NCBI GenBank assembly: GCA_964036045.1
Contig: OZ038387.1
Span: forward strand, 19,122,794 to 19,186,793
Direction: 5' to 3'
Length of the DNA: 64,000 bases
Source: Eutreptiella sp. 'Long Island Sound 2002'
Taxonomy: Eukaryota > Euglenozoa > Euglenophyceae > Eutreptiales > Eutreptiaceae
Shown here: positions 3,381-37,121 of the stretch, piece by piece
Position numbering within the stretch: position 1 is the stretch's first letter
Layout of the letters: every line of letters begins with the position of its first letter
Notes under the pieces: model-generated
Seen by the model: only the letters and a program-made list of their open reading frames with translations
Told to the model about the DNA's origin: nothing
Databases searched by the model: none
Made by a program: the position numbers and the translations under genes

Positions 3381-3381
3381 C

Positions 3382-17702: not shown

Positions 17703-18063
17703 CAGCTATGTGTATAAGGTCTGATGTCTGATGTCTGATAAGGGATGTTGTGTGTGCGGTCTGTCCACGAAGATGTCTGATATTCTTATGTACTGGAGGT
17801 GGGTCTAGGGGTCCAATGCCCCCCCCCCCCCGCCATTGTCCACACCAAATTCTTCACAGGAAACCCCCCCCACCCATCCCCCCCCCCACTATCGGGTGCT
17901 TTCCAGCCTCCCTCCCCCCCCCCCCCAAGGAGAAAAGGCGCCACAGAAAACACAGACCCCCCTGTTTGGAAAGCAATTGCACACCTGTTGTTGACAGTAG
18001 TGTATGTGACAACTTCAATTTGATTTTGATTTTGGTTGTTTGAGCAGACAATTTGTTTGTGTA
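17703..18063 (+). repeat. Left terminal inverted repeat region
   Basis: The outer 14 bp are perfect. Then comes a (GTCTGAT)3 tract at 17719-17739, C-runs, and a block from 17820 to 18063 that matches the right end in inverted orientation, with indels mainly in the C-homopolymers. The (GTCTGAT)3 tract lies in direct, not inverted, orientation relative to the one at the right end. Confidence 0.85.
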
Positions 18064-18065
18064 TT

Positions 18066-18157
18066 TGGGAAAGGGGAAAGGGGAAAGGGGAAAGGGGAAA
18101 GGGGAAAGGGGAAAGGGGAAAGGGGAAAGGGGAAAGGGGAAAGGGGAAAGGGGAAAA
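18066..18157. repeat. (GGGGAAA)n microsatellite, about 13 units
   Basis: A nearly perfect 7-bp tandem repeat just inside the left terminal repeat. The right end lacks it. Its ORFs (Gly-Lys-Glu-Arg repeats and the reverse) are artefacts. Confidence 0.95.
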
Positions 18158-18400
18158 TGTGGGACCAGGAAAAGTGGGAAAATTGAACAACCACCACACA
18201 AAAAAGCCAAATGGGAAACATCTCAAGAGATTGCATCATGACCATTGCAACCAGCATAAGCTAAATTCAGATCCACAAATAAAATGGTCGTGGTAATGCC
18301 ACAGAACATCAAATCAAATGTGCAAACAGGGAAAATGGGAAAAATCTTCGAAGACAGCACACAACAACAAAAGGGCACATGCAAATACGTGGGCATCCTC

Positions 18401-21400
18401 TCATTCATCGATGAGTCCATCCATGTCATCCACTGGCTGCGAGCAACTGGGCTGGGAGCTGCTTGGTGGTGCCGCAGAACGGGTGACACGGTCCGTGTCC
18501 GGCACAAAGGCATCCCATTCTTCCAATAATGGCAACGCATGCTGCGTAGCAAGGTCCCGCAGTTCCTGCCGATCGCTGTTACCTGCCACCTTCACACCAA
18601 GCACATCCAGACAGTTCAACAGCGCCCCCTTTGACCAATCACGCAGCCTGCCATTCTGCGTGGCCATCACCAATTTCGCCTGCATCCTGGCCACACCACG
18701 CCTCTTATTTGGCTTCCGTGGTGTGGCCAATTCGTCTGCACTATTGTTCTCCCCCTCATCACAGACATCATCTACAACATTCACCACCACGTTCCCACAA
18801 GGACGTGGACTTGCGCAAAAGCATGCATGGCACACCAGACATGTATTGCACCAGATGCGAACCTCCTTTCTGCATGTGGCACACTCCATACCTCTGCGAA
18901 AAGTGATGAAGTCATGGTTGCCAGCATGCGAGTCAGGGGTCCCATCAGGTGCAACAATGCTGACCACATCTGCCTGGTGCCGTTCTGTACCCTTTCCTGA
19001 GGGTGCCGTTGAGCTCAGTGGTGTACCCGGCCCTCCAAAGAAGGGCAGGCTGTCACCATCATCAGCCACTGCTTCATTACCTTGCAGACATTGAAGCATT
19101 GCGGCCTCCACAGATTCTCTGTCCCCTACCTTCTTTGAAACCCTTTGTCTTGGGCGCAGATCGAAGCGTGCATGGGCAGCCAGGTGGCGTGCCACTGCAA
19201 CGCCTTGTCCCTTTGCCCATTGCTGTAAAGGGGGCAAGTTGGAATGCAATGCCATGCACATGCTCAGGACATGTGTCTCCACGGTGTCATGCATACTACT
19301 GCAGAACCTCCCACGCAAAGAGATGGCACGCTCTACTGCAGCTTCAGCGGGGCAATATGTTCGCAATAATGCGAGAACGCGCCACACATTCCCCCACTGC
19401 GCATGTGCCCTTTCAGGTGCCAGTGCCTCCCACATCTTGGACATTTGCACAGTTGCAAAGTGCTGCACCATGTGCTCCTTAAGGCCTTCCCACTCTACCA
19501 AGGCACGGTCACAGTTCACATTGGCTGCACCCAACTCTTCTTGGTGTGAAGTCATGAACTGACGCAACTGCTCCACCCCATATGCAGCACGCTCATTGAC
19601 CGGGAGAGCAACGAAACGGCCATGGTCCAACAAGACTGCGCACTCCAACACCCCCCCGGGGTCAATGGTTGCGTGCCCCTCCTTGATGCCTGCAAGCAAC
19701 ACATCGGTCACTGCACGCGCCTGAACGCCTGGAAAAGGAGGGGTTGTTGCACACTTCTGCCCACCTGAATCAAACTGGACCCACTGCACACCACGCCACG
19801 CACCAGTTACAGTCTGCTCCTTGAATTGCAACCACCCTGGACCCTCCTCGCGAGCCACCCTCTGCAACCGGGCTTCTAGCATACCCGTTGCAGTGGCTAA
19901 GTGTGCACCAGTGGGCGCACATAGTTGTGCCACACTGTTAAAACACCGCATGCCATGCAGGATGTCCCCGTAGACCACCCCCCATGCAAGCAAACTGGCA
20001 TCATTGCAGTCCTCCCACACATCCTCCTCCTTGGTAGAATGCTGCACCTTGGAATCCAAGTGTCGTGCCACCCAAGGGACATTGGCCAAAAAAGCAGTGT
20101 TGCGCCGTGCATGCGCCTGTGACCACCTGATGCGATGACTAGTGGGGATGAGCTGCAAGCCACTACGTTTATCCTGCACATGCCTTTGCACACACTTTTG
20201 CAACTCCTTCCACTGCCGTGCCCCATTGTACAAGCCTCGTTGCCGATTGACGGCCGCCAAGTAATCAACATGGGTTGGGCCAGCAGCCTCCAATGCAAGA
20301 CCCAACTTGCGCTGCAACACATGGCACGGCTCACCCAAGGGTGTCATCAACACTAACCACTTCCCAATCAAGGCGAACACATTGCTCTCAATGTGTGAGA
20401 CATCAACAACCTGCCGCGCACTGGCACCCCGCACACCAAGGTTAGAAGCCCCGTCCACTGCAAAGGTCACTACCCTCTTTGCCCACCAATCACGGTCAAG
20501 AATCCAGGACATCAGGACGCATTCTAGCTGCGTTGCAACCTCATGCGCATCACCACAGGCCACATCCGGCACACCAAGGAACACCTCACACATGCCCCCA
20601 GGGCCAGTCCCCGGGAAAATAAGCAGAATGGCATACTCATTGATGCGATGCCTCTGCCTATCCGAGCCGTCAAGCAACACTGCAATGAACGTTGCCAGGA
20701 ATAGGGCATGCGTTACCTCATCCTGCATGGCATCATGCATTGCGGCAATAGCCTTCTCAACTATCCACCGCCGTGATGCATGGTGCCCAGGGGCGGATGT
20801 CAGAGAACAGTGCAGAAGGATGCGCTCACTTATAGCACGGATGGAAGTGCACATGCGTAACCCTATATACACCTCAACCAACCGTGACAGAATGGCTGCC
20901 TCAGCATCCGACACTGCCACACCAATGTCCATGGCTTCCCCCCTGACGAACACAACGGTCGCTCCCACCACCACAGCTGTGGCACCAGCAGTGGGGCACA
21001 ATGCGCGATACCGCTCTGCACAATGCAGCTTGAAGCTGTCCTCAGCCAATCGGTGGTGGTGCCCTGGCCTATGCAGATTCTTTCGGTTTGATGTTGTGCC
21101 ACGTGATAACCCCAAGTGGCTTTCCAACACCTCCTTCCGCCACGTTTTTGGGCCGGAGGTCTTCATGCGCATCCCTACAGCATATGTTCCCAATACCAGG
21201 GCTTCACTTTTCTTAGGGGGACGCGCCACCCCAGGAATGCCACACACGTTTGCCCACGCACAACACACACACTCAACACCCCCACTTGTCGTGAACTGAT
21301 ACTGCCAATGAGCGGCTACAAACATTTGTAGTGTCTTTGGACCACTGTCCAGCTGCATGGGAGTGGCCTGCATCAACACGCACAATGCGTCCTTCCCCGA

Positions 21401-22414
21401 TGCGGCCAATGCAACAGACCTCAACCTGTCTTGCTCGACTGATTGTGCCACTGAGGATTGTGACATGCCATGCTCTGCATGCCGCGCATCCCACTCTTTT
21501 GCATGCCGTGCTCTCAGTTGCATCTGGTGTGCTTCAACACGCACTCTCAGATGCCTTGCCACTCGCACCTTGCGCTTCTGCAGCAACTGTGCCACTGCCT
21601 CGACAAATTCTGAGGACGTCTGTAGCGGCGCCGAGGCAGCCACACACATCTCATTAGGCATGCTCTGGGCATGCGTACTGATGTCCCCTACCCTTGAAGC
21701 ACTCTGTGTTGCAGTTGGGGAAGGGGGGGGTGCGCCTTGTGCCAGCGCCATGGCTGGCACAGAGGCGACCATAGGCACGCTCTGGGCATGCATAGGCCTG
21801 TTCCTGATGTACCCCACCCTTGATGCACCCTGTGTTGAAGGAGGGGTGGGGGGGGACGCACCTGGTGCCAGCGCCATGGCTGGCACCGAGGTGTCAGTAG
21901 GTACGCTCCGGGCATCCCGTGTCTGACCAGGGGCAGGCGGTCCTGTCCGTTGGGAGGCACGCTGCGACATGTCTGGTACAACCAAATATGTCTGTTTCCG
22001 CTTGTATAGCAGAAACGTCGCCTTTCGCGGGTCGGGGGGGGGATTCATGGCCTTCACCGTGGTGTCGTTACACAACCAACACCTGTCGTTGAAAACGACA
22101 TGCACCAGAAAGTGACCCTCCTCCCTCGTCGCTCCAATGTGCAACACCATGGCATGCAAGGACCATTGCCACCCCAGGCAATCGAGAAACTCATGGTCCA
22201 CAACCAACTTGTACTCTTGCTGGTTGTGGACATGTAACCCCACGACCTCGTTGTACACCACCGATGTATACATTGGTGCCTCCCTGAGGTGACCCCCACA
22301 CGGACACGGGGGGGGGTTGTCAGGTAACCCAACCGGTCTCCCCTTCATTCCCTCCTTCACACGCTGGCGCATACTCTGTCCCTGGTTCGTCACATGCAAT
22401 ATCTGCGCTGGCAT
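18401..22414 (-). CDS. hAT-like transposase with USP C-terminal half, Cys cluster and SAP motif
   Basis: A 1337-codon ORF ending in TGA. Residues 35-145 are the His-box half of a USP-type peptidase (HAMVLHIG..EEGHFLVHV, then CWLCND; catalytic His about 101). Residues 165-250 are two Ala/Pro-rich repeats of about 36 residues. Residues 362-455 resemble a hAT-associated zinc finger (ECVCC, a TWRKEVLESH stretch, downstream His). Residues 575-710 carry hAT-like catalytic blocks: AVLLDGSD (Asp about 582), a FLGVPDV segment, FAVDGASN (Asp about 654), then PCHVLQRKLGLAL and RIRWSQ (about 762). A dimerisation-like end, AEAAVERAISLRG (Glu about 1028), follows. Residues 1178-1200 hold eight cysteines and 1253-1290 a SAP-like motif. 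The canonical C-x2-H of hAT is altered. The N terminus joins the upstream USP half if one G is removed from a G9 run near 22421. Confidence 0.8.
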   Translation of the reverse strand: MPAQILHVTNQGQSMRQRVKEGMKGRPVGLPDNPPPCPCGGHLREAPMYTSVVYNEVVGLHVHNQQEYKLVVDHEFLDCLGWQWSLHAMVLHIGATREEGHFLVHVVFNDRCWLCNDTTVKAMNPPPDPRKATFLLYKRKQTYLVVPDMSQRASQRTGPPAPGQTRDARSVPTDTSVPAMALAPGASPPTPPSTQGASRVGYIRNRPMHAQSVPMVASVPAMALAQGAPPPSPTATQSASRVGDISTHAQSMPNEMCVAASAPLQTSSEFVEAVAQLLQKRKVRVARHLRVRVEAHQMQLRARHAKEWDARHAEHGMSQSSVAQSVEQDRLRSVALAASGKDALCVLMQATPMQLDSGPKTLQMFVAAHWQYQFTTSGGVECVCCAWANVCGIPGVARPPKKSEALVLGTYAVGMRMKTSGPKTWRKEVLESHLGLSRGTTSNRKNLHRPGHHHRLAEDSFKLHCAERYRALCPTAGATAVVVGATVVFVRGEAMDIGVAVSDAEAAILSRLVEVYIGLRMCTSIRAISERILLHCSLTSAPGHHASRRWIVEKAIAAMHDAMQDEVTHALFLATFIAVLLDGSDRQRHRINEYAILLIFPGTGPGGMCEVFLGVPDVACGDAHEVATQLECVLMSWILDRDWWAKRVVTFAVDGASNLGVRGASARQVVDVSHIESNVFALIGKWLVLMTPLGEPCHVLQRKLGLALEAAGPTHVDYLAAVNRQRGLYNGARQWKELQKCVQRHVQDKRSGLQLIPTSHRIRWSQAHARRNTAFLANVPWVARHLDSKVQHSTKEEDVWEDCNDASLLAWGVVYGDILHGMRCFNSVAQLCAPTGAHLATATGMLEARLQRVAREEGPGWLQFKEQTVTGAWRGVQWVQFDSGGQKCATTPPFPGVQARAVTDVLLAGIKEGHATIDPGGVLECAVLLDHGRFVALPVNERAAYGVEQLRQFMTSHQEELGAANVNCDRALVEWEGLKEHMVQHFATVQMSKMWEALAPERAHAQWGNVWRVLALLRTYCPAEAAVERAISLRGRFCSSMHDTVETHVLSMCMALHSNLPPLQQWAKGQGVAVARHLAAHARFDLRPRQRVSKKVGDRESVEAAMLQCLQGNEAVADDGDSLPFFGGPGTPLSSTAPSGKGTERHQADVVSIVAPDGTPDSHAGNHDFITFRRGMECATCRKEVRIWCNTCLVCHACFCASPRPCGNVVVNVVDDVCDEGENNSADELATPRKPNKRRGVARMQAKLVMATQNGRLRDWSKGALLNCLDVLGVKVAGNSDRQELRDLATQHALPLLEEWDAFVPDTDRVTRSAAPPSSSQPSCSQPVDDMDGLIDE

Positions 22415-23150
22415 GGCTGTCTCCCCCCCCCTCCCGCAGAACCTTCACCCCACAGGCACCACAGTATTGCCAGAACTGCTCGTACGACAAACAACATGAC
22501 AGAGCAACCACCCCAGCGGCCGTGAGCTTGGGCACCATGTACTTCCAACACTCGGGCATCTCCGCCTGCCGCATCCATTGGAATTTTGGTGCAGGGGCTT
22601 TGCACTTGCATCGCCCGCTGCATCGGCACACCGTCTCACACATGGCATCCTCCATTGCCAACCTCTGAGCAATGTCCTGTGGATTGTATGCACCACCTCC
22701 TCCATGTGCCACAACACCCTGCCACAATGGTCCCCAAACACCCTCCTCGTCCAGGCATCCTGCGTGTCCTGCGTGTCCTGCATGTCCACCCGACGCCACC
22801 AACAGACACTGCAGCGTGGTACCCAACCAACACCAGTTGTACCCATGTGGATTCTCCATTCCCCATGGTCGCCGCGGTGCTCCACCAGGTGGCCCACTAT
22901 GCACCTGCATGTAAGCGGAAAGCGGTCTCATCGAGGAATGCACGGTCCCGCGGCGGGAGTGTCCACCAGTCACCACGGGAGTACAACACCACCAACCTCC
23001 TCTCCCCGTGCCAAGAACAAGTGCCATGCCATGCACCCGTACGCACGAAAACCGGTTGCTGGCATACATCGTACGTGGCGCCAACCCGTGTAACACCATC
23101 CAAGCATTCCATACTACATCTCCGTCCACCCCGACCATTACATACACCAC
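22320..23150 (-). CDS. USP-type ubiquitin peptidase, Cys-box half (frame fragment of the transposase gene)
   Basis: Only the part after about 22900 is meaningful. It contains NWCWLGTTLQCLL (catalytic Cys about residue 107, codon near 22831), the Cys box of C19 peptidases. A cysteine-rich insert (CETVCRCSGRCKCK) and a YEQFWQYCGACG stretch with a CxxC-like pair follow. The His box lies in the next ORF (18401-22414). A one-base indel in the G9 run near 22421 would fuse them, with ALL residues in family order. The first about 80 codons of the ORF overlap the dioxygenase region in another frame and are probably not translated. Role inferred: removal of ubiquitin-like modifiers; the target is unknown. 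Confidence 0.7.
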   Translation of the reverse strand: MVYVMVGVDGDVVWNAWMVLHGLAPRTMYASNRFSCVRVHGMALVLGTGRGGWWCCTPVVTGGHSRRGTVHSSMRPLSAYMQVHSGPPGGAPRRPWGMENPHGYNWCWLGTTLQCLLVASGGHAGHAGHAGCLDEEGVWGPLWQGVVAHGGGGAYNPQDIAQRLAMEDAMCETVCRCSGRCKCKAPAPKFQWMRQAEMPECWKYMVPKLTAAGVVALSCCLSYEQFWQYCGACGVKVLREGGGDSHASADIACDEPGTEYAPACEGGNEGETGWVT

Positions 23151-23664
23151 CTACCTCCACCCATATGTGTCCCCGTGTGTGCTGGCCGGTGGAAAACACT
23201 GCCGACCAAGGGGACGCGTCATGCACATGCTGATGCGGTTTTGTGAGCACATTGCAAGACAATTGCATGGTGGTCCATGTGAACCAATCAGGCAACATCT
23301 GCCTTGCCATCTTGTTCACCAGGGTCACTAGTGGCTTGTAGTGGCGTGTCCGTTGCACTAGACGAGTGCGGCGGCAGTCTGTTGCATTGGTGTGGCCCTT
23401 CATACCACCAACCCCTAGTTGCAAATGCCACGCTCTAACCCCCCCAACCGGCCCACGCTTGTATGCCAAGATGCCCATCATCCCGTGCAACGTGCAAAAG
23501 GGGGCTACCTGCAGCGAATGGTCAAAGACTGCACCCCGGAAATGACCACCTCCTTTGACACCATCTCGTTCCGCCTCGGCAATAACCACCACCGTCGCCC
23601 GGTGGCACTGCTCCTCCATATCCCCACAGTCACGGTAGTGCAGCGGATGCTCCCGTCCAGGCAC
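22897..23664 (-). CDS. TET/JBP-like 2-oxoglutarate/Fe(II) dioxygenase domain (frame segment of the transposase gene)
   Basis: A 255-codon segment continuing the OTU frame after a single TAG (23665). Residues 30-50 (VVVIAEA..GGGHFRGAV) probably supply the C-terminal His of the OTU domain. Residues 115-225 match the TET/JBP core: TTMQLSCNV, then PHQHVHD where the family has an H-x-D iron motif, then GHIWVE. Further on are WHGTCSWHGERRLVVLYSR, with the distal His and the 2-oxoglutarate-binding Arg, and a TLPPRDRAFL end. The iron Asp appears to be His (H144-Q-H146), so activity is doubtful. TET/JBP enzymes oxidise 5-methylpyrimidines in DNA; here the domain could counteract methylation of the element. 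The identification rests on motif order and needs a profile search. Confidence 0.65.
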   Translation of the reverse strand: MPGREHPLHYRDCGDMEEQCHRATVVVIAEAERDGVKGGGHFRGAVFDHSLQVAPFCTLHGMMGILAYKRGPVGGVRAWHLQLGVGGMKGHTNATDCRRTRLVQRTRHYKPLVTLVNKMARQMLPDWFTWTTMQLSCNVLTKPHQHVHDASPWSAVFSTGQHTRGHIWVEVGGVCNGRGGRRCSMECLDGVTRVGATYDVCQQPVFVRTGAWHGTCSWHGERRLVVLYSRGDWWTLPPRDRAFLDETAFRLHAGA

Positions 23665-24483
23665 CTAAACAGTAGCGGATGTCAACGCGCTGTCAATCCC
23701 AAACCCTGACGTCACAATGTTGTACCTGTCTGATCGCAGCAACACCACACTACCGTCCACGTGTTTCGCCAAGGCAGCAAAGTGGTCAGCCATTCCCCCT
23801 TGGGGCCGGCCACGCCATGTGTCCTTCTCAAGATCCCGGTTCACAGATAGTGAAGACTCTTGAATTGAAAGCCCACACATGTCGCGAAACACGGCGATGG
23901 CCCTTGCCCGCAGCGATGCGCCGTCCAACGGGGTGTTGCTGGTGATAGCATGCAGGCTTTGGGCCACGGCATAGTAGAAACATGCCCCGGCAACGTATTG
24001 GTCGGGAAGAATGCGAAGCTTCAAGGACCTTGCCGTTGGTAGGACTCTGCCAACCTCGGCCTTGCTGGGCTTTTTGTCCACGTGGTCCAATGCCATAGCA
24101 TCTGGATCTATCGGCGCTGTCTTTGTGCCTTGCTCTCTCTTGCCACGTTTCATGGCAGCCTTACTTGGTGGGGGAACCCCTGGGCGCTTCTTGCTCCGTG
24201 GGCTCTGTCCCACAGAACTGGGGTGTGCAACCGGGGTGGTCGCTGACTCTGCACTGGACTGACTGCAAGCCCTCACTGTCGCCAATGAACTAGGGTGTTC
24301 AACCAGGGTGTACCCTGAATCCGCACTAGACTGACTGCAAGCCTTCACTGTCGCCACAGTGCCTGTGCTAGAAGGACTGCAGTCCACAGCAGCTGGCTCC
24401 TTGGGTTTCTGTGCAAGTGGTACAGGAGACTCCTCCAAGGAACTCGCCACCCCTCCATCACTAGCCGCCGGTGTCAGACACAC
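23665..24483 (-). CDS. OTU-like cysteine peptidase domain (frame segment of the transposase gene)
   Basis: A 272-codon segment ending at TAG 23665, with the frame continuing in the next segment. Residues 40-92 are two Ser/Ala-rich repeats (TVKACSQSSADS and TVRACSQSSAES types). Residues 98-122 are strongly basic (SKKRPG, KRGKREQG), perhaps a nuclear signal. The OTU core starts near 160: D..VAGACFYYAVAQSLHA (catalytic Cys about 168), LRARAIAVFRD, then QGGMADHFAALAKHVDGSVV. The matching His (GGGHFRGAV) lies 41 codons after the TAG, so the domain is complete only if the TAG is read through. OTU peptidases also occur in KDZ/Zisupton-type transposons, so deubiquitinase cargo on transposons has precedent. 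Confidence 0.7.
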   Translation of the reverse strand: MCLTPAASDGGVASSLEESPVPLAQKPKEPAAVDCSPSSTGTVATVKACSQSSADSGYTLVEHPSSLATVRACSQSSAESATTPVAHPSSVGQSPRSKKRPGVPPPSKAAMKRGKREQGTKTAPIDPDAMALDHVDKKPSKAEVGRVLPTARSLKLRILPDQYVAGACFYYAVAQSLHAITSNTPLDGASLRARAIAVFRDMCGLSIQESSLSVNRDLEKDTWRGRPQGGMADHFAALAKHVDGSVVLLRSDRYNIVTSGFGIDSALTSATV

Positions 24484-25964
24484 AGGGTGGGGGGCCGGGG
24501 AGTGTGACTCACCGGCGGGGCAGACCTGGGACCAGGGGTCCGGTGTTCCACGTTCAACACATGCCGCGTTCGCACCTCCTGGGGGGGGGGGGGGGCAGGT
24601 GGACTTAACACCTCACCAGTCTCCACCCTAGGTGCACCTGCCGGGGGACCACGCCCTTGTGCCAGGGAGGACGAAGTGGGAGTCACAGACTCATCGCCTG
24701 AGGGGTCTCTTGCCATGCGCACCGCCGCTCCACCCTCCTGCGCTACGGCAGAGGACGTGGAGTCACTTGGGTCACCTCGGGGGTGCCCTTCTTGACTTAA
24801 AGGTTGGGTGCATGGTCGCTGTACACCGGCCGCCTCCATCTCCTCCATGCGCACCGCCGCCCCAACCCCCTGCGCTACGGCAGAGGACGTGGAGTCACTT
24901 GGGTCACCTCGGGGGTGCCCTGCTAGACTTAATCGTTGGGTGTATGCTGGCTGTACACCGGCCGCCTCCATCTCCTCCACTAGTACCTGCAGCATCTCAA
25001 GCCCTGCATCGTCCCTCCATGCGTTGTCCATAACCCGTACGGCCGCATGCAGACGACCGGGATGACTGTCTGGCACCTCTGGGCTAAAGGGGCTGCAACG
25101 CAGCAAGAGCTCGTTGCAGTCTTGCATAGGCACCCGCATGCTGTTCGCGAAGTGGCGGCCCAGCGTGTATGCTGCCACCAGGCTGTCCTCAGTCAATGGT
25201 TCTCGGCGCTGCTCTTGCAGCCCTTGGCATGCAATCGTGAGGCAGCGGGCTGCCCCATGGGCGGCTTGTAGCAACGCCTGGTCAAAGCGCTCTTGCCGTG
25301 TCTGGGTGACAGTGACACACGCACGTGGGACCGCAGCCTCAGGCAGCAACGAGTTGCGCCGACCGCTAGCGCGCGCCTTGGGGCTTGGCAACAGGTCGCT
25401 CACCAGTGGTTTGGGTCCACTTGTCGCTTGGGGCCACAGATATGGGCCAGGCGTCACATGGCGAATAGCCTTGTCATAGAAGTAACCCATGGTAGGGGTG
25501 GGATACGCCACGTCCCCAGTCCAGAACGGCCACTCGTCGACCAGAGGTAGGGCACGCACCAGTTCACACCAAACGTCCCTTTGCTCTGCTGTCTTCACAC
25601 TTGACGGCCACCCGGCAATAGCACCGGCCTTACGACTGCCTGGCCGGCCAGTGTTCCGTTTCGCAAGTCGTTCCCACAGGTCTGTGGCAACATCCCGGTA
25701 GTGCACGAGGCTCCCCCCATCATGCATGGTGGGCTTGGCAAACCCATGCTCGGTGTACATGAACCGGCACAATGCCCTGCAACCATGCAGATTCACCACA
25801 TCAAGGTCACACGAGGCCATGCGGTCCCTCAACCGTCGCCATAGGCGCCCGGCCACCTCCGGTGTGGCCTCCCACCCCAATTGTCCTGTGGCCAGCATTA
25901 GGCCATACTTCATTCTTGCTGGCTCCAGCAAGTGCTCCGGTGGCCATTCAGCAGGCTGGTCCAT
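24474..25964 (-). CDS. N-terminal region of the transposase polyprotein, unknown function
   Basis: A 496-codon ORF. Residues 1-270 look globular, with blocks such as GRLWRRLRDRMASCDLDVVN, CRALCRFMYTEHGFAKP and WCELVRALPLVDEWPFW; I recognise no family. Residues 320-400 hold two tandem repeats built on EEMEAAGVQ and GHPRGDPSDSTSSAVAQ. The tail is Pro/Ser-rich. It must change frame to join the OTU segment. Two explanations fit: an indel in the C14 run at 24581-24597, or a 104-nt intron with donor GTGAGT at 24512 and acceptor TTGCACAG ending at 24409, which restores the frame. It starts at ATG 25964, the first Met after repeated non-coding sequence. Confidence 0.6.
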   Translation of the reverse strand: MDQPAEWPPEHLLEPARMKYGLMLATGQLGWEATPEVAGRLWRRLRDRMASCDLDVVNLHGCRALCRFMYTEHGFAKPTMHDGGSLVHYRDVATDLWERLAKRNTGRPGSRKAGAIAGWPSSVKTAEQRDVWCELVRALPLVDEWPFWTGDVAYPTPTMGYFYDKAIRHVTPGPYLWPQATSGPKPLVSDLLPSPKARASGRRNSLLPEAAVPRACVTVTQTRQERFDQALLQAAHGAARCLTIACQGLQEQRREPLTEDSLVAAYTLGRHFANSMRVPMQDCNELLLRCSPFSPEVPDSHPGRLHAAVRVMDNAWRDDAGLEMLQVLVEEMEAAGVQPAYTQRLSLAGHPRGDPSDSTSSAVAQGVGAAVRMEEMEAAGVQRPCTQPLSQEGHPRGDPSDSTSSAVAQEGGAAVRMARDPSGDESVTPTSSSLAQGRGPPAGAPRVETGEVLSPPAPPPPQEVRTRHVLNVEHRTPGPRSAPPVSHTPRPPTLCV

Positions 25965-26202
25965 TGCTTGGCTCGTGCACCACGACTGTTAGTGGTTTGG
26001 GTGACCTTGGAGGCTTGCAGGGTCCACAACCGTGACCACTATGGGGCTCCCACAACTCGGGGGGGCAATCAAGGGCCGGTCCTTGGTACTCAAAGTGCCA
26101 GCCGGGCTGGTCCTCAGGCTCACCGGCTGGTCCAGGAGACGCCGTTGCTGGTGGGTTTGTTGTCGAGAGCGCTAGGGCTATGACAACAAACGAAGTGCTG
26201 CT

Positions 26203-26375: not shown

Positions 26376-26469
26376 CTGGCAGAACGCGAACTCGCACAGG
26401 GAAAGGTGTAATGAGGCAAAAACAAACTACAAGGAGAAAAAGTACAGATCAGACCACAGAACCTGGACG

Positions 26470-29400
26470 CGGCGTACCCCCGAAATGTTTTGGAGGTGAG
26501 ATATTGGACCCCTTCCGTCAAATATTTGGGGGTGTAGACCCTCCAAATATTTGACGGAACCCCTTCCGTCAAATATTTGGGGGGTGGAGACCCTCCAAAT
26601 ATTTGACGGAACCCCTTCCGTCAAATAGTTGGTGGGTGTAGACCCACCAAATATTTGACGGAACCCCTTCCGTCAAATATTTGGGGGCTGTACACCCACC
26701 AAATATTTGACGGAACCCCTGTACACCCACCAAATATTTGACGGAACCCCTTCCGTCAAATATTTGGGGGTGTTACACCCACCAAATATTTGACGGAACC
26801 CCTTCCGTCAAATATTTGGGGGCTGTACACCCACCAAATATTTGACGGAACCCCTTCCGTCAAATATTTGGGGGGTGTAGACCCACCAAATATTTGACAG
26901 AACCCCTTCCGTCAAATATTTGGGGGCTGTAGACCCTCCAAATATTTGACGGAACCCCTTCCGTCAAATATTTGGGGGCTGTACACCCACCAAATATTTG
27001 ACGGAACCCCTTCCGTCAAATGTTTGGGGGCTGTACACCCACCAAATATTTGACGGAACCCCTTCCGTCAAATATTTGGGGGGTCTACACCCCCCAAATA
27101 TTTGACGGAACCCCTTCCGTCAAATATTTGGGGGCTGTACACCCACCAAATATTTGACGGAACCCCTTCCGTCAAATATTTGGGGGCTGTGCACCCACCA
27201 AATATTTGACGGAACCCCTTCCGTCAAATATTTGGGGGGTGTAGACCCACCAAAAATTTGACGGAACCCCTTCCGTCAAATATTTGGGGGCTGTAGACCC
27301 TCCAAATATTTGACGGAACCCCTTCCGTCAAATATTTGGGGGCTGTACACCCACCAAATATTTGACGGAACCCCTTCCGTCAAATGTTTGGGGGCTGTAC
27401 ACCCACCAAATATTTGACGGAACCCCTTCCGTCAAATATTTGGGGGGTCTACACCCCCCAAATATTTGACGGAACCCCTTCCGTCAAATATTTGGGGACT
27501 GTACACCCACCAAATATTTGACGGAACCCCTGTGCACCCACCAAATATTTGACGGAACCCCTTCCGTCAAATATTTGGGGGCTGTAGACCCTCCAAATAT
27601 TTGACGGAACCCCTTCCGTCAAATATTTGGGGGCTGTAGACCCTCCAAATATTTGACGGAACCCCTTCCGTCAAATATTTGGGGGCTGTACACCCACCAA
27701 ATATTTGACGGAACCCCTGTACACCCGCCAAATATTTGACGGAACCCCTTCCGTCAAATATTTGGGGGCTGTAGACCCTCCAAATATTTGACGGAACCCC
27801 TTCCGTCCAATATTTGGGGGGTGTAGACCCTCCAAATATTTGACGGAACCCCTTCCGTCAAATATTTGCGGGGTGTAGACCCACCAAATATTTGACGGAA
27901 CCCCTTCCGTCAAATATTTGGGGGGTGTAGACCCACCAAATATTTGACGGAACCCCTTCCGTCAAATATTTGGGGGGTGTAGACCCACCAAATATTTGAC
28001 GGAACCCCTTCCGTCAAATATTTGGGGGCTGTACACCCACCAAATATTTGACGGAACCCCTTCCGTCAAATATTTGGGGGGTGTAGACCCACCAAATATT
28101 TGACGGAACCCCTTCCGTCAAATATTTGGGGGCTGTACACCCACCAAATATTTGACGGAACCCCTTCCGTCAAATATTTGGGGGGTGTAGACCCACCAAA
28201 TATTTGACGGAACCCCTTCCGTCAAATATTTGGGGGCTGTAGACCCTGCAAATATTTGACGGAACCCCTTCCGTCAAATATTTGGGGGGTGTAGACCCTC
28301 CAAATATTTTTCACGGAACCCCTTCCGTCAAATATTTGGGGGGTGTAGACCCACCAAATATTTGACGGAACCCCTTCCGTCAAATATTTGGGGGCTGTAC
28401 ACCCACCAAATATTTGACGGAACCCCTTCCGTCAAATATTTGGGGGGTGTAGACCCACCAAAGATTTGACGGAACCCCTTCCGTCAAATATTTGGGGGCT
28501 GTACACCCACCAAATATTTGACGGGACCCCTTCCGTAAATATTTGGGGGCTGTACACCCTCCAAATATTTGACGGAACCCCTTCCGTCAAATATTTGGGG
28601 GGTGTAGACCCACCAAATATTTGGGGGCTGTAGACCCTGCAAATATTTGACGGAACCCCTTCCGTCAAATATTTGGGGGGTGTAGACCCTCCAAATATTT
28701 GACGGAACCCCTTCCGTCAAATATTTGGGGGCTGTAGACCCTCCAAATATTTGACGGAACCCCTTCCGTCAAATATTTGGGGGGTGTAGACCCCCCCAAT
28801 ATTTGACGGAACCCCTTCCCTCAAATATTTGGGGGCTGTACACCCACCAAATATTTGACGGAACCCCTGTACACCCACCAAATATTTGACGGAACCCCTT
28901 CCGTCAAATATTTGGGGGCTGTAGACCCTGCAAATATTTGACGGAACCCCTTCCGTCAAATATTTGGGGGGTCTACACCCCCCAAATATTTGACGGAACC
29001 CCTTTTGTCAAATATTTGGGGGCTGTAGACCCCCCAAATATTTGACGGAACCCCTGTACACCCACCAAATATTTGACGGAACCCCTTCCGTCAAATATTT
29101 GGGGGCTGTACACCCACCAAATATTTGACGGAACCCCTTCCGTCAAATATTTGGGGGGTGTAGACCCACCAAATATTTGACAGAACCCCTTCCGTCAAAT
29201 ATTTGGGGGCTGTAGACCCTGCAAATATTTGACGGAACCCCTTCCGTCAAATATTTGGGGGCTGTAGACCCTCCAAATATTTGACGGAACCCCTTCCGTC
29301 AAATATTTGGGGGGTCTACACCCCCCAAATATTTGACGGAACCCCTTCCGTCAAATATTTGGGGGCTGTAGACCCCCCAAATATTTGACGGAACCCCTGT

Positions 29401-29477: not shown

Positions 29478-29651
29478 CACATCTCATTAGGCATGCTCTG
29501 GGCATGCGTACTCATGTCCCCTACCCTTGAAGCACTCTGTGTTGCAGTTGGGGAAGGGGGGGGTGCGCCTTGTGCCAGCGCCATGGCTGGCACAGAGGCG
29601 TCCATAGGCACGCTCTGGGCATGCATAGGCCTGTTCCTGATGTACCCCACC
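29478..29651 (-). repeat. Captured 174-bp fragment of the element's own transposase gene
   Basis: Nearly identical to 21645-21818, with at least two substitutions (for example ACTCATG for ACTGATG). It corresponds to the Ala/Pro-rich repeat region of the 1337-codon ORF. It is bordered on both sides by satellite units, so it was copied into the satellite in the same orientation as the source. Confidence 0.9.
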
Positions 29652-29730
29652 ATTTTGGGGGTGTAGACCCCCCAAATATTTGACGGAACCCCCTCCGTGG
29701 AATATTTTGGGGCTGTAGACACCCCAAATT
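29652..29730. repeat. Terminal diverged satellite unit
   Basis: CCCCAAATATTTGACGGAAC followed by CCCTCCGTGGAATATTTTGG: a degenerate unit after the captured fragment. It shows that the fragment was inserted inside the array. Confidence 0.8.
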
Positions 29731-30021: not shown

Positions 30022-33000
30022 TTAGTGGCGCCCCAGAATGTAATCTTTCACCCCGTGGGGCAGCTTGCGCCACCCACATTGGGGGGCTTCCTCCTCGTGC
30101 ACTGTAACCGGAATCGGTGCACACACCCCAAGGGTCCCAGGGCAGGGGTGCACACCATGGAGCAGGGACGCCACGTACACACCAATAGGGGTGCGGAATT
30201 CCGCACACAAGAACGGCAGGGAATCCAGGCACGCGTACGCGTCCTGCCACAAGGGCAGGTGGATCGTGCGGTACGCCCCTACTGTCTCCTTGTTGCTGTA
30301 CTTTTGCTTCCAGAAGAGGGGCCTTCCCACCAGGTGCTGGACGAGTCGCTGCTCCCACACGTCAAGCTTGGATGTGTGGGTTACCCTCACCAGCCCCCCC
30401 CAGTCCCCCTCTCCCCTGTCCCCTTGTCCATCGTCCTCAACCAAGACGTACGGGAGCGCCCATTCGGTGAAGTCAGGCAGGATGACCCCCAGAAGGCGGG
30501 GTTTCACAATGTTCCCCCGTGCATCCCTCAGAGAAACAGACACCTCATCCTTCCGATTGTTGGCCATGATGCGCTCAAAGTCAAGCAACTGATCCGCACT
30601 GCCTGGTTGATACCCCCATGGGTCCCGTGCCCTCTTGTGCCTCCTCCATGGCTTCCACAGCCAGTGCCCCACCACCCCCCCAGCCAACCGGTAGATTGTG
30701 CCATGCACAATCTTCTCCACAGTTGCGGCCTCCCTCAGAACCCCTGCCAGCTCAAGAGTGTCGCTCACAGTCCCAGAGGCTGCTTCCCACTGCATCGCGT
30801 GCAGTGCCTCGAGCCATACACCAGGGGTGGGGTGGGTGGTCCACCGTGCAAAGTGCCCGAAGAGGTGCAGCTCCGACTGCGCCCTGTTGGTCAGGGTGTT
30901 TGACCGCCAGATGTCGTGCATGATCCCTGGTGTCTTGGACACCAGGGAGGCCAGGATCACTGGGGCTTGCAGCCCCTGGAACCTATCGAGGGTCGCAACC
31001 GTGCTGAGGAGGTTTACATGATGGGTCTGCCACTTGCGGCCAACAGACGCCACGCACTGTTTCAGCCACACCATCTGTGCGTGGTGAGTCGTCACTACCG
31101 CTATCGACTGTGCTGGGTAGGTCCCTTTCCTGGCAGCATACTCCAAAAAATGGCACACCAGCAGACCCTCCTCCATGCTCAGGCCCCCCTTGTTCAGCAA
31201 CACCGGATCCATTCGCAGGGTGGCCCATGCTTCCTGTACGTCGTGCCACATTCTACCTAGGTCCTGTGCCCCCAAAGTCTGCTCCAACTCCCCCCACCAC
31301 GTGGACCTAGCGAGGTCCACAATGCGGATGGGGTTGTTCAGGATGGGGTCGGGGAGGGGGTGCTCAGATGAGTGGTAGTGGCCAACTGCCCCCCCCCGTA
31401 AACAAGGCACGCATGACCGTGGCCAGCGGCTGGGTCATCCGGTACTGTTGTACCAGGATACTGGCCCGGCAACGCGTGCGGTACAAAAAGATTTGCAAGG
31501 TGCTGGTGGTGCAAAACCGATGTGAATCATGGCAATGCACTTCCGGGCCAGGACCGTCCATTACAACCCCGTTGAACTTGAAGGTGTCCGCCCGTGGCCA
31601 TGCCACTCTCTGGGGGACTACGTCAAGCCCCTCAGCCTCACACCAACTTGCCAAAAGCTGGACGTGGCTGTAGGGCCGCAACTGCCCTGGGTCACCACAC
31701 AGCAAACATTGGCTGCCCATGGCGGCCAAGTCCAGGCCTACAGAGATGCTGTGCCTCGACGCCTCATCCACGAAGCTGAACGCGAACCTGGTTTTTTCCT
31801 GCCCTTTCCCAAGCAGCATCTTGTGCCGGTTAGCAACCATCCCAGCCGTGGCAAACAGAACACGGCAGGAGTTGAGGGCACATTTGAGGGTAGGCTTGCA
31901 ACCTGGGGTCTTGCCCAAGGTCTTCTGCACCTCCTCCTGGTCGAAGGGTGCCAGGCCTGTTGGGGCAGTAGCCCGTTGGGCTCGGAGGCGCAACTAGGGG
32001 GCTGGGTGCTCGCCAAGCACCTTCTCACGAAACACACTGTCCTTGTAACACTCCTCGTGAACGCGTGCCAACAACATGTCGACTTGTGCGTTCGTGGGTG
32101 CAGTCACCAACACGCATGCGCGGGGTTGGGTATCTGACTCAGGTCCCCCCACCTTCCTGCCCATGTTCCACGTACTCCGGTCAGCAGGTTCAGGGTTCTG
32201 GGCGACCAGGAGGCCTTGCTGCCATAGCACGGCCTTGATGCATGCCACCAAAGTCTCCGACTTCCCTGTGCCAGCACCACCAGTCAATGCCGTGATGCAT
32301 GACTCATCCAACACCTGCCGCACAGCCAACGCCTGTGAGGGATTCAGCCCGTGCTGTTTGACAAGGTGTTTCAGGATGTCCTGGTCCTCGGTCGACAGGG
32401 GAGGCGTGTCCCTCGGTTCGGCCCGCATGTTTGCCAGCAGTTGGGGCCACGCTTCTCCGTCCTGGATCTCCCTACGCAAGGTCTGAAAGGCACCTGTGTC
32501 GGGGACAACCTTACACCAATAGGTGTCAGCGAGATTGGTGCGTGGCTTATTGGCACAGCTGATCCAAACACGCTGTCCTGAGATGCCATCTCCATGCACC
32601 CTCGCCTCGAAGTCCGGCTTGTTTTTATCCCAGTGGTGGTTGCTGCAGATCCAGCCACGCACCATGTCACCATCGGACAGCTCATAGTTGCCCCAGACCT
32701 CCATTTGGGAGGCCCATTGTGGCGGTGGGGGAGCATTCCCATCCCCATCGCCATCACCGTGGGGCCTCCATTCCTCAAAGGCCAGGCGCCGCTTGGTGCC
32801 GTTCTTGTCTGCCCACACCTCAGCGGCCGCCATCTCATGGACGGTGTACACCTCTGATGCTTTGGTCACGAACTTGTCGCGGTCAAGCCACCGTTGCGTA
32901 AACCCTTCGACAAGGTTGTCATCGGGCCCGTAGTCCATGTTGTTCAACGTGGCCGTAGTGGGCAACAGTGTTGGCTGCTGTGGCTGAGCAGCGCATGGTG

Positions 33001-33837
33001 GTTGTGAAGAGGGTTGAGCTCCTTGTGGCGCACCCGAGTCGACCGGCGCCATGGCCGGGACAGGGGCGGATTGCTGCAGCTCGGTGGCACGCATTGCTGG
33101 TGCAGAGGGTTGGGTACCCTGTGGCGCGCCCGAGTCAGCCGGCGCCATGGCCGGGACAGGGGCGGATTGCTGCGGCTCGGGGGCACGCATTGCTGGTGCA
33201 GAGGGTTGGGCACCCTGTGGCGCGCCCGAGTCCACCGGCGCCATGGCCGGGACAGGGGCGGATTGCTGCGGCTCAGGGGCGCGCAATGATGGTGCAGAGG
33301 GTTGGGCACCCTGTGGCGCGCCCGAGTCCACCGGCGCCATGGCCGGGATAGGGGCGGATTGCTGCGGCTCAGGGGCGCGCAATGATGGTGGTTGTGCCGA
33401 GGGTTGCGGTGGGATCATGACGAAATCCACACCCCCGGGTGGCGGCTGGGGCGGTGCCTGTGGGGGGGCAGAGGGTCGCGCGCCCCTGTCAGCCGGCGCC
33501 AGGGCCGGGACAGGGGCGGAGTGCAGCGCCTCTGGGGCGCGCGGTTGAGGTGCCATTGCCTTTGGGAGGCAAAGTGCGGCGCGCCCCTGTCAGCCGGCGC
33601 CAGGGCCGGGACAGGGGCAGACTGTGGCGCCTCTGGGGCGCCCGGTTGAGTTGCCGGTGCCTTTTGGGGGGCACAGTGCGGCGCGCCCCTGTCAGCCGGC
33701 GCGCGGGCCGGGACAGGGGCGGAGGCGCGCGCCTCTGGGGCGTGCGATGGTGATGGTGATGGTGATGGTGGTGGTGCCGTTGCCTTCGGCTTCGGCTTTG
33801 CACCATACTTGGTCTTGGCGAGCCATTTTGGAGCCAT
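30022..33837 (-). CDS. Upf1-like superfamily 1 helicase of the giant element
   Basis: The start is ATG 33837 (MAPKWLAKTKYG), a basic N terminus followed by Pro/Gln/Ala repeats (33780-32960). A linker domain with WADKNGTKRRLAF and DMVRGWICSNHHWDK follows. Motor motifs in order: Walker A GGAGTGKSET (about 32281), VTAPTNAQVDMLL, then RVLFATAGMV, motif II FVDEASRH, motif III CGDPGQLRP, QYRM, then TLDRFQGLQAPVIL and NRAQSELHLFG. A C-terminal domain of about 220 residues ends at TAA 30022. Breaks: one missing A near 33572, an in-frame TAG at 31994, and an extra G in the G9 run near 31392. Each is a single lesion and the motifs resume exactly. If UAA and UAG are sense, the stop becomes TGA at 29995. 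Probable role: unwinding nucleic acid during transposition (inference). Confidence 0.8.
32960..33780 (-). repeat. Tandem repeats encoding the helicase Pro/Gln/Ala-rich region
   Basis: Units of about 115-120 bp with GGCGCCATGGCCGGGACAGG or GGCGCCAGGGCCGGGACAGG recur at least seven times. Encoded units read QQSAPVPAMAPVDSGAPQG and variants. The repeats differ in sequence from those of the other copy (1-840) but have similar composition. Confidence 0.85.
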
Positions 33838-33840
33838 TTG

Positions 33841-33885
33841 GAAGAGTGCCCTACGAGTAAGAGACGCTCGGCGCACACTGCCCGA
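33841..33885 (-). promoter_or_regulatory. Partial shared 5' module directly upstream of the helicase ATG
   Basis: GAGTGCCCTACGAGTAAGAGACGCTCG matches GAGTGCCCTATGTGTAAGAGACGCCCG at 902 in the other copy, where it belongs to the longer module. It begins 4 bp upstream of the ATG at 33837. Regulatory function is only inferred from position. Confidence 0.4.
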
Positions 33886-34086
33886 AGAGCTGGAAATTCG
33901 AACGTCTCGCCGAAGTCTGGGGTCGCTGCAGGGGGGCTTGCGCAGGGAGCAATGACCCAAATTGCGGGGGGGCGGACTGAGACGCACGCCGCTGGAGCAA
34001 TGAACCGTACTGCGGGGTGGGGCATGGCCGCTTTGGGGCGGGAGCCAGTGGGAGGAGGGAGGTACGGCGGTGCCTGCTATATTGGG

Positions 34087-34911
34087 TCAGCGTACCTGAT
34101 CACTTGGTGGAGGGGGCAGCGGCCGACGCGGCACAGGTGGCGGGGCTGGCTTGGGGATACGGGGGGGTTTTGGGGTGGCACACAGGATTTCAAGTACCAT
34201 TGCTGCATGCTCCTCGTCCCTGCTGAGGAAATGCGAACGACTAATTCGCATGCCCTCCTGCCACACCCGCAGGGGGTTTTTCTTGGGCTGCTGCACAGCA
34301 AACCGGTACATCGCTCGGCGGTTCAGCACCCCGTCTACAAAGTACTGGACCCCACCCCCGTGATTCTCCCGGATGAGCTGCAGTGTTTTGGCACTGTAGG
34401 GCCCGTGTACAGTGGGCTTTGGGGGGGTGGGCGGGTCCTTGGGTACATACTTGGGGGGTTGCGGGGGGGATGGCGGTGGCACGGCAGTGCACATCAGGGC
34501 CTCCTCCACGGCTTCCAGGGCTACCAGGTATGGGGTTGGGGGGGCAGAGTGCGGCGCGCCCCTGTCAGCCGGCGCCAGGGCCGGGACAGGGGCAGACTGT
34601 GGCGCCTCTGGGGCGCCCGGTTGAGTTCATGTGGTTGGGGTTGGGTTAATGTGGGGTCTGCGTGGAGGACTTACGGGCATTGGAGAGGTGGTTGGTGCAC
34701 GGCAGGGTGAAGGGGGAGAGGGAGGCGGTGTTGGCAATGGAGGCTGGGGGGAGGCCAGTTCGCTGAGACACTTCTCAGCATCAGAGTCCCACGGTGGTGA
34801 TGGGGGTTGGTCTCCAAACCGCAAGAGCTCCGGCAGATCCCCCCAACCGCATTCCGGGAACGAAGGGTTGGAGGGGGCGGAAGAGGCCACACTAAGGGGG
34901 CTAGACGACAT
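34087..34911 (-). pseudogene. Pro-rich unknown protein (copy 2), interrupted
   Basis: Collinear with the 267-codon ORF at 1866-1063, starting with the same Ser/Pro-rich N terminus (ATG 34911). It is interrupted by an 83-bp patch (34545-34627) identical over most of its length to helicase repeat DNA at about 33572-33653. The conserved core (FVDGVLNRRAMYRFAVQQP) follows intact. A one-base deletion near 34088 then changes frame and creates TGA after SDQVR. Downstream, CAG stands where copy 1 has TAG. Function unknown; conservation between copies suggests it was a working gene of the element. Confidence 0.65.
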
Positions 34912-34929
34912 GGCAAAGTGCAGCCCGCA

Positions 34930-35045
34930 GTGTCTGGGTCAGAGACGCAACGGTCTAGACCCTAGACGCGCTTCCTCGCCTCAAGGGTCAAGGGTCGATA
35001 ACAAAAGAGTGCCCTATGTGTAGAAGAGGCTCAGCGCACACTTGT
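34930..35045 (-). repeat. Shared 5' module, copy 3 (upstream of Pro-rich ORF copy 2)
   Basis: GTCTGGGTCAGAGACGCAAC, CTTCCTCGCCTCAAGGG and AAAGAGTGCCCTATGTGTA occur in the same order as at 1914-2025, at the same distance from the ATG (34911). Confidence 0.65.
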
Positions 35046-35148
35046 CTCCTAGGCAATACACGCATTTCCCTTTGTGTCGAGAGAGACATGCACAACAAGG
35101 AACAGATAAGCGTTGAAGGGACATAGGTACCAGGAGCATGTGACATGG

Positions 35149-35252
35149 GACCCCTTCTCAGTAGCGGGCCGCATGTTCATCATTAAAGGGGTCTATGGTC
35201 ATAGGCGCCATGGCCTAGACCACGGACGTACTAAACACCTCAAGGGTGTTGT
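35149..35252. repeat. Three-hairpin element, copy b
   Basis: ACCCCTTCTCA...AAAGGGGTC, then TGGTCATAGGCGCCATGGCC with TAGACCA, then AACACCTCAAGGGTGTT. All three stems can form. Confidence 0.7.
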
Positions 35253-35744
35253 GCATGATCCACCAAATAAAGTAAAATCAAGTGCGATAAAACCAAAACA
35301 TACCATGAAATCACAACCACATTAAATCAATGGACCACCAGTACCCACATAGCAGAGCCCCTTCTCAGTTTTTTTTTTGGCTGACAGTGGGAATTCTGCA
35401 TCACCCAACTCAAATGCAGTCCGTCACATTGGACAGTACTGCGCCCAGCAAGGCAGAATGAAAAAGAAACCTTGGGGCCGGAATCTACGCAATGACCCGG
35501 ACAAGCTGTCAAGGTAGGGGCTGGCGTATGTTGTGCAGCACAAGGGTGCAGTAGGGCTGATTGCAGTGGTCTTTGGCAAGTTTGGCAAACATGCAGATCC
35601 GTTGGAGTATGGGGAGATGCCTGGCTCCATCCAACAAAATAGGGCCTATGACAGTAGGCCTTGGACAGATTGTTCCCACATGGCTGACACATCATCGAAG
35701 GGGATGCATACGTGGAAACATGGAAGCAAATACCAGGAAATCAG
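35253..35744. other. No gene recognised
   Basis: Holds one half-site of the hairpin element (CCCCTTCTCAG at about 35358) and short ORFs on both strands without motifs. Confidence 0.4.
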
Positions 35745-35848
35745 AACCCCTTCTCGATTGTCGTCAGCACATTCCTCATCGAAGGGGTCTGTGGTCGTAG
35801 GCGCCAGGGCCTAGACCATGGACATACCAAACACCTCGATGGGTGTTT
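35745..35848. repeat. Three-hairpin element, copy c
   Basis: ACCCCTTCTC...GAAGGGGT, then TGGTCGTAGGCGCCAGGGCC with TAGACCA, then AACACCTCGATGGGTGTT. Stem 3 stays paired despite a different loop. Confidence 0.7.
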
Positions 35849-36650
35849 TTCAGGAACAAACAGCACACGTTCAAATACACCTTCAAAAGAAATGCAATGC
35901 GACACGTGGCACCAAAGTTGCAAATGTTCACGACTTACACCATAACACACCTCTGAGAATGGTAGTCTGTGGGTAATCTGTAGTCTGTGATTTTTTCCAT
36001 GTTTTTCCACTACACACAGAACCAACAGAACATCGAACATCACAGACACACACCATGTGATGCTGACACTGAAAGAGGCGAGGCAGGCTTTTCCACACCA
36101 TTGCGCATGGGGTTGCGTGGGGGGTGTTTTCCCTACACTGTGGATTTCTCTGCATGGTTTTCCAAACTTCCTCAAGAAACACTATGGCAAGACGGAGGAC
36201 GACAAGACAGAGCACAGGGGTTTTAATGGTCGTCACCAGATCCTGCAATGAACAACAAAGCGTGAGCAGGGCATAGTGCAGCACATTGCAATGAGCCTTC
36301 GGGGCTGGGACAGAGGGGCGGTTTAAAACAAGGAAGTCAAATTCGAAATCACTTCAAAGCCCCTTCTCAGATGTATGTTGCTTGGTTTTCAAAATGGTTG
36401 CTGGCCATTGGAGGACATGGTGCACATTCTGGTGGACATGGTACACTGACTGCTGGGGGCAGTCCAATTCCTCGGCCGCAAATCCGCAAAGCTCCGTCCG
36501 CACAAAACAGGTCCTAAGAAACAGGTCCCTGCGGGGGTCGACACTGAAGACCCACGCGTGACGGAGCAGCACATGTAAATTGTCATGCATCGTCATTGAA
36601 GGGGCTCACAGTCAGCAAATTGTAATTGGTTGCAGGAGCAAACGTGCCAG
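35849..36650. other. No gene; contains an expanded first hairpin (36357-36606)
   Basis: AGCCCCTTCTCAG at 36359 and CATTGAAGGGGCT at 36593 are the two arms of hairpin 1, about 220 bp apart. The outer pair has changed from A-T to G-C on both sides, so pairing is kept. Nothing else recognised. Confidence 0.45.
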
Positions 36651-36755
36651 AACCCCTTCTCAGTTGTGATCAACGCGTTCATCATTGAAGGGGTCTCTGG
36701 TCTAAGGCGCAAAGGCCTAGACCAGAAACAATCAAAAACACCTCAAGGGCGTTGT
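36651..36755. repeat. Three-hairpin element, copy d
   Basis: ACCCCTTCTCA...GAAGGGGT, then TCTGGTCTAAGGC with GCCTAGACCAGA (longest stem, 12 pairs with one bulge), then AACACCTCAAGGGCGTT. It abuts the right terminal repeat region. Confidence 0.7.
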
Positions 36756-36757
36756 AC

Positions 36758-37121
36758 ACAAACAAATTGTCTGCTCAAACAACCAAAATCAGAATCAAAT
36801 TGAAGTTGTCACATACATTGTCAACAACAGGTGTGCAATTGGTTTCCAAACGGGGGGTTTGTTTTTTCCGTGGCACCTTTTTTCCTTGGGGGGGGGGGGG
36901 GGGTTGAAAACACCCGATAGTGGGGGGGGGGGGGCGGGGGGGGTCACGGGGGGGGGTTTTCCTGTGAAGAGTTTGGTGTGGACAAGGGCGGGGGGGGGGG
37001 GGGTTGATGTAGTGCATAATCAAGGGGTTGGGGGAGGGGGGTTCATGGTCTGGTAATGATGGTCCATAAAAGTCTGATGTCTGATGTCTGATAGCCGACT
37101 AGGTCGCTATACACATAGCTG
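36758..37121 (-). repeat. Right terminal inverted repeat region
   Basis: The reverse complement of the left end: ACAAACAAATTGTCTGCTCA, TGTCAACAACAGGTG, and G-runs in place of C-runs. Then come (GTCTGAT)3 (37072-37092), an imperfect palindrome TAGCCGACTAGGTCGCTA, and the terminal TATACACATAGCTG. Confidence 0.85.

Follow-up and report, generated by a model that had tools for sequence, protein, structure and literature searches.

Structure of the element

The window analysed here, a stretch of 64,000 nucleotides on contig OZ038387.1 (C10 below) of the euglenophyte Eutreptiella sp. 'Long Island Sound 2002', holds a transposable element of 19,419 bp at positions 17703-37121, with three recognised genes and a satellite array inside it. 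The element is bounded by perfect 14-bp terminal inverted repeats, each found once in the window: CAGCTATGTGTATA on the left (17703..17716, plus strand) and its reverse complement, read from the window, on the right (37108..37121, minus strand). The octamer CTCACCGC lies directly outside both ends, its two occurrences (17695-17702 and 37122-37129) forming the left and right copies of the target-site duplication. Further in, a left subterminal block of approximately 245 bp (17819..18063, plus strand) pairs in inverted orientation with a right block at 36755..37002 (minus strand), the two being 86% identical (221 of 257 aligned positions, 21 of them gap positions), a figure that is inflated by long C/G runs inside the blocks. 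A TCTGATG-type repeat is also present at both ends (17720 and 37073), in direct rather than inverted orientation. The initial annotation had described a complete 19.4-kb element with perfect 14-bp inverted ends, an 8-bp duplication and about 240 bp of further inverted homology, all of which we recovered on re-reading the window.

The three genes lie on the minus strand and read from the right end of the element to the left: open reading frame 1 (ORF1), a superfamily 1 (SF1) helicase; ORF2, which is OTU-like by motif; and ORF3, which is predicted to encode the transposase. Two plus-strand reading frames that were scanned had no Pfam match. Because all three frames are interrupted in the window copy, this copy is probably not self-sufficient and would need proteins supplied by other copies. 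Between ORF2 and ORF1 lies a satellite with a 52-bp unit and some 83-bp spacings (26508..29398), and the same satellite makes up stretches of the copies on C1, C5 and C7 (L042, L090 and L061). Beside it we noted a 177-bp fragment of ORF3 (29478..29654, minus strand), 98% identical to 21645-21821.

Copies, insertion sites and an empty site

Searches of the 2.28-Gb genome assembly returned many further copies, the match counts being lower bounds as scoring was limited to the best candidates. The left end (298 bp) matches at least 40 places at 96-100% identity (40 scored of 1173 candidates) and the right end (300 bp) at least 40 places at 94-100% (40 scored of 1471). In the loci fetched, the exact terminal sequence is adjoined by 38 different left flanks of 40 bp, a count that leaves out loci with an altered terminus such as L027 and L031; the left boundary is the same in copies with differing flanks. 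The terminal repeats are identical in other copies, except on C2 and C12, where the right end differs at one or two positions. When right ends were paired with left ends on the same contig and in the correct orientation, 21 pairs were obtained besides the window, leaving out the window's own duplicate, whose flanks are identical. The 8-bp duplication is perfect at 18 of these 21 loci and matches at seven of eight bases in the other three; 17 of the perfect cases were called by script, and the eighteenth, the copy on C12 whose right end carries two inverted-repeat changes, was added by reading. Insertion sites display a weak preference only, with A absent from position 6 in 38 of 38. Because so many other copies share both ends, a chance origin of these ends is excluded.

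An empty site was also found. With the joined flanks of the window copy as query, one of 36 matches was full-length, at C1:183503600-183504190; the remainder comprised the window copy and its duplicate as well as matches that were incomplete and more diverged. This match covers 589 of the 600 bases without gaps at 579/589 identity and holds a single CTCACCGC; it lies at a paralogous place. Two of the checks proposed in the initial annotation, for further copies with both ends and for an empty site, gave positive results, and of the two outcomes that it had named as fatal to its claim, the lack of any other two-ended locus and a misassembly of the ends, the first is answered by the 21 loci and the second is ruled out by their 18 perfect duplications together with the gapless empty site. 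The interval 17703-37121 is a real mobile unit and not a misassembly.

A second copy lies 98,243 bp downstream on the same contig (C10:19238739-19259979), its flanks identical to those of the window copy over 1,500 bp on the left and 521 bp on the right, and may represent a recent segmental duplication or two haplotypes placed in tandem by the assembler. Its length exceeds that of the window copy by 1,822 bp and, judged from where its ORF2 and helicase matches fall, the additional sequence sits between these two genes, in the interval that holds the satellite. The array may change length quickly, or may have been assembled differently in the two copies.

The spread of the family is recent. The transposase core has at least 53 genomic matches at 95-100% identity (53 scored of 1738 candidates), 35 of which, by our own count, have no stop in the matched part. 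Across 30 copies the mean pairwise identity of the core is 98.9% (98.1 to 100%), and the ratio of non-synonymous to synonymous differences (pN/pS), computed for this core, is 0.45 over 435 pairs and 0.41 against the majority sequence. These 30 copies take in the window copy and its duplicate, a copy on C7 together with the C1865 copy that is probably its duplicate, and four stop-bearing copies.

Sizes could be tabulated for 21 elements (19 of the 21 two-ended loci, the window and its duplicate), which span 1,820 to 27,098 bp. All three genes are matched inside eight of the 21, corresponding to eight of the 12 elements of at least 17 kb, and two of these eight are the window copy and its duplicate. 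This gene tabulation entered 41 of 53 transposase, 13 of 142 ORF2 and 14 of 99 helicase matches, and none of the remainder, inspected by eye, falls inside a tabulated element; an element may seem to miss a gene simply because the copy ranked below the matches that were scored. At the small end of the range, the 1,820-bp copy consists of the left 354 bp and the right 1.47 kb, and a 6,814-bp copy has its right 1.4 kb fused directly to the left part, which extends to approximately 23033. The duplication of this latter copy is perfect, both ends are retained, and the USP-transposase (ORF3) is the only one of the three genes left in it. A stretch on C9 fetched for its right end (L040) had no match to the window and lies past the end of a short copy. 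Similarly, L043 (C7:40029249-40032249), situated 17.9-20.9 kb away from the left end of the copy at C7:40011330, did not match the window; it may reflect a further insertion, a copy that is truncated, or one with a longer unmatched part.

Coding content

The main frame of ORF3 (18404..22444, minus strand; 53 scored genomic matches) reads, by its motifs, as the His-box part of a USP-like domain followed by a transposase with a Cys-rich C-terminus. Its candidate catalytic and conserved residues include D582 (20669-20671), D654 (20453-20455), RW at 763-764 and a VERAIS motif with E1028 (19331-19333). The N-terminal part lies in another frame (22323..23150, minus strand) and contains a USP Cys-box-like stretch, NWCWLGTTLQCLL, which we matched by eye to the USP motif and which may be catalytic. 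Several other copies have this part and the transposase in one continuous stretch, and in the C17 copy a single ORF3 frame of 1,578 residues holds both the USP-like domain and the transposase. In the relative P0027, Pfam UCH is matched at 3.4e-6 (27.3 bits against a cut-off of 23.9) in the same frame as the N-terminal part of the transposase, and both P0027 and P0004, approximately 66-69% identical in the transposase, bear the same fusion. PDB hits with P0027 were at chance level, with USP12 at the same place (E 0.39-0.45) and TREX1 as the best hit (0.11). From its motifs, ORF3 is predicted to encode a transposase to which a USP-like deubiquitinase domain is fused. The initial annotation had spoken of a multi-domain transposase, a description to which a USP-like domain and a second, OTU-like gene can now be added. 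PDB sequence searches with the transposase gave nothing useful, and an AlphaFold2 model of its core, built from 17 sequences, had a mean predicted local distance difference test score (pLDDT) of 29.9, too poor for a fold search. Searches of 5.8 billion proteins returned members of the same family only (6 and 27 proteins, with approximately 8,000 candidates scored each).

ORF2 is split in the window between a C-terminal part (22900..24612) and an N-terminal part (24477..25988), both on the minus strand, with an in-frame TAG at 23665-23667. The two parts form one frame in the C17 copy, where ORF2 is 1,073 residues long, as it is in three further matches among the 142 scored for this gene. The ORF2 and ORF3 frames overlap by approximately 250 nt. 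On the strength of the motifs ACFYYA, a WGG-like block and GGHY, we take ORF2 to be OTU-like, and an OTU-like gene is also present in the relative P0006. The stretch that follows (22900-23664) we assume to be 2-oxoglutarate-Fe(II) dioxygenase-like from AWHGT and GERRxVVLY, its metal-binding motif being atypical; such a C-terminus may recall the TET/JBP enzymes of other transposons. PDB sequence searches with P0006 and pieces of ORF2 gave nothing useful beyond one chance match for the OTU part.

ORF1 (30025..33589, minus strand) encodes an SF1 helicase with a Pro-rich, repeated N-terminus. Both Pfam AAA_11 (4.1e-11) and AAA_12 (2.6e-9) score above their cut-offs, a pairing that we take to be UPF1-like, and a PDB sequence search pointed to a resemblance to aquarius (E 0.0013). 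On the same strand are the Walker A motif GGAGTGKSET (32252-32281), VDEAS (31757-31771), CGDPGQL (31679-31699) and the later helicase motifs (30862-30984), and 96-bp repeats encode the Pro-rich part at 33004-33390. The window copy has an in-frame TAG at 31994-31996 and a frame change near 31400. Elsewhere the frame reaches 1,352 residues in five scored matches and 1,472 residues at its longest; of the five, one has a stop in the matched part and two appear to be a single copy placed on two contigs. The initial annotation had listed the Pro-rich protein as a component of its own. It is in frame with the helicase (31997-33589, with Walker A at residue 437), which rules out a separate gene and makes it the N-terminal part of the helicase frame.

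Neighbouring repeats

The window contains several repeats outside the element. Another element, related to the first, is represented by its right part at 829-3915, which continues into L059 (C10:19121000-19122793). Here 901-1613 shares 90% identity with 33842-34541, and 3852-3915 corresponds to the right end of the first element, a single change affecting the terminal repeat (TATACCCATAGCTG, 3902-3915). The similarity of this second element to the helicase region (approximately 77%, at the DNA level) runs on into L059, outside the window. A block of diverged repeats of another kind lies at 49500-58400, with many pairs approximately 78-98% identical, and a short interstitial CCTAAC array of 6.8 units, telomere-like in sequence, at 14094-14134.

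Discussion

Precise ends, an 8-bp duplication, an empty site, many recent dispersed copies, and the co-existence of large multi-gene and small deleted copies together characterise this family. We consider it probable that it is a family of giant cut-and-paste DNA transposons with a hAT-like transposase. The motifs of ORF3 follow one another as DGSD (582), DGASN (654), RW (763-764) and VERAIS (1027), an order like that of hAT transposases. Ordinary hAT loci, with the C-terminal hAT dimerisation domain PF05699 above its cut-off, are abundant in the same genome (at least 150; 150 scored of 1757 candidates) and provided the material for direct comparison. Against a hAT profile of 10 proteins (one hAT ORF of this genome and nine of its 14 database hits), the best local match set DGASNL on the hAT DNASNI (E 0.077; 0.11 in another run). 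A home-made model of the hAT C-terminus, which drew on 11 of the 12 hAT loci fetched from this genome, placed VERAIS of the relative P0011 on VERLFS at 4.7 bits, with shuffled controls reaching 4.1.

A number of results weigh against this reading. Neither the ORF, its fragments, nor 17 aligned sequences, made up of the window protein and 16 relatives of which several are fragmentary, matched a Pfam hAT or KDZ model, with matches considered at E up to 10. Eight of 200 column shuffles reach the local profile score of 23.6, the reversed profile comes close to it at 22.5, and global alignment of the profiles fails to line up the motifs; the window protein itself obtains 1.3 bits with the home-made model, below several shuffles. 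The predicted accessory domains face similar difficulties. The UCH match in P0027 spans only the last quarter of the profile (196-254 of 254), which is the His-box part, and the window's own frame scores 18.4 bits, below the cut-off. The OTU and dioxygenase stretches of ORF2 have no Pfam match, and an AlphaFold2 model of this region from three sequences had a mean pLDDT of 35.9, again too poor for a fold search. Finally, ORF1 and ORF2 are dispensable in cis, since the 6,814-bp copy has both ends and a perfect duplication with the USP-transposase alone.

Several of these results would fit an alternative that we regard as possible though distinctly the less likely: the family may belong to a superfamily of its own, so far undescribed, of DDE transposons that duplicate 8 bp, or to a distant branch of P, KDZ/Zisupton or some other group. 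P, KDZ/Zisupton and other groups also make 8-bp duplications; the 17 aligned sequences matched neither hAT nor KDZ models, global profile alignment failed, protein searches recovered the family only, and the insertion-site preference is weak and not clearly the nTnnnnAn of hAT elements. Against it stand the local matches of DGASNL to DNASNI and, in P0011, of VERAIS to VERLFS, two motifs in the right order, although each is within chance when taken singly. A second alternative, an ordinary hAT transposon with captured host genes as passengers, is consistent with the existence of deleted copies that have no extra genes, but is improbable given that the helicase, the OTU-like gene and the USP-transposase recur together at dispersed sites in long open frames, that relatives only approximately 66-69% identical in the transposase (P0027 and P0004) share the USP fusion, and that P0006 has the OTU-like gene. 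The joining by the assembler of the ends of two different elements across the satellite, which the large array in the middle of the element and the additional 1,822 bp of an identically flanked duplicate might suggest, can be dismissed in view of the matching perfect duplications across the whole unit at 18 of 21 other loci and the gapless empty site.

We therefore retain the designation 'hAT-like' for this giant cut-and-paste family, because the duplication and the order of the motifs fit, yet Pfam gave no match and profile comparison stayed near chance. The family behaves as a giant variant that works in the manner of hAT elements, and its membership of the group itself is unproven. The initial annotation's picture of one mobile unit with transposase, helicase, satellite and 8-bp duplication holds, whereas its placement in the hAT group is not established at the sequence level.

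It is plausible that the ORF3 transposase, with the D, D, E-type residues of a putative RNase H-like core, binds the element at its 14-bp ends and subterminal blocks, excises it and inserts it at 8-bp staggered cuts, with the small internally deleted copies being mobilised in trans. More speculatively, the USP-like domain and the OTU-like ORF2 product could deubiquitinate the transposase itself, or else chromatin at the site of departure or insertion, which would protect the transposase or open the chromatin. Similarly, the SF1 helicase might help in the handling or repair of very long element DNA, or shield the RNA of the element. We can go further, tentatively, to a view that we ourselves find doubtful: the family would form a new superfamily of giant, high-copy cut-and-paste elements in which a deubiquitinase-joined transposase, an OTU-like and possibly dioxygenase-bearing protein and an SF1 helicase would act as tools against silencing based on ubiquitin and perhaps on DNA modification.

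A recently spread family with copies of 17-27 kb shows that an element of this kind can remain mobile at such a size while carrying three genes and an internal satellite. If true, the fusion of a transposase to a deubiquitinase-like domain would constitute a direct link between ubiquitin and transposon control. Moreover, a satellite inside a mobile element, with total length probably differing between copies with identical flanks, suggests a route for the transposon-borne spread of satellites.

Comparison with known systems places the element among several groups. Polinton/Maverick, Teratorn and Starships likewise are mobile DNAs with several genes and a length of at least 20 kb; their ends and duplications differ from those described here, and, unlike in these groups, the frames scanned showed no recognisable polymerase, capsid or tyrosine recombinase. 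Large size is also shared with the KDZ elements (Kyakuja, Dileera and Zisupton), as are, for Zisupton, 8-bp duplications. Pfam contains KDZ and CxC models, and neither KDZ transposase nor CxC domains were matched by any protein examined. DNA transposons of KDZ-like groups can carry TET/JBP dioxygenases, as reported in PMC12730594.

A ubiquitin-protease-like domain is a feature in common with Ginger elements, which reportedly carry an OTU-like protease domain, and with Helentrons, which share the helicase as well. Ginger elements have a transposase of the Gypsy-integrase type, and Helentrons move by a rolling-circle mechanism without 8-bp duplications; both differ from the present element, the former in transposase type and the latter in mode. 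PMC6431247 reports that transposons can carry OTU-like protease domains and that Helentrons also have a helicase, and the term 'hat' is absent from its main text. A literature search outside subscription journals and repeat libraries found no hAT-like element with a USP, OTU or SF1 helicase.

With hAT elements such as Ac/Ds, Hermes and Tol2, the family shares the 8-bp duplication, short inverted ends starting with CAG, subterminal repeats, the co-existence of autonomous and internally deleted copies, and candidate D, D, E-type motifs in the same order. hAT elements, which excise through hairpins formed on the flanks, and similar cut-and-paste transposons are usually a few kb in length. In contrast, the present element is approximately 20 kb, lacks a Pfam hAT match, and has three genes and a USP-like domain on its transposase. 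This cargo, a deubiquitinase-like domain on the transposase together with a helicase gene, goes far beyond what is usual for such elements.

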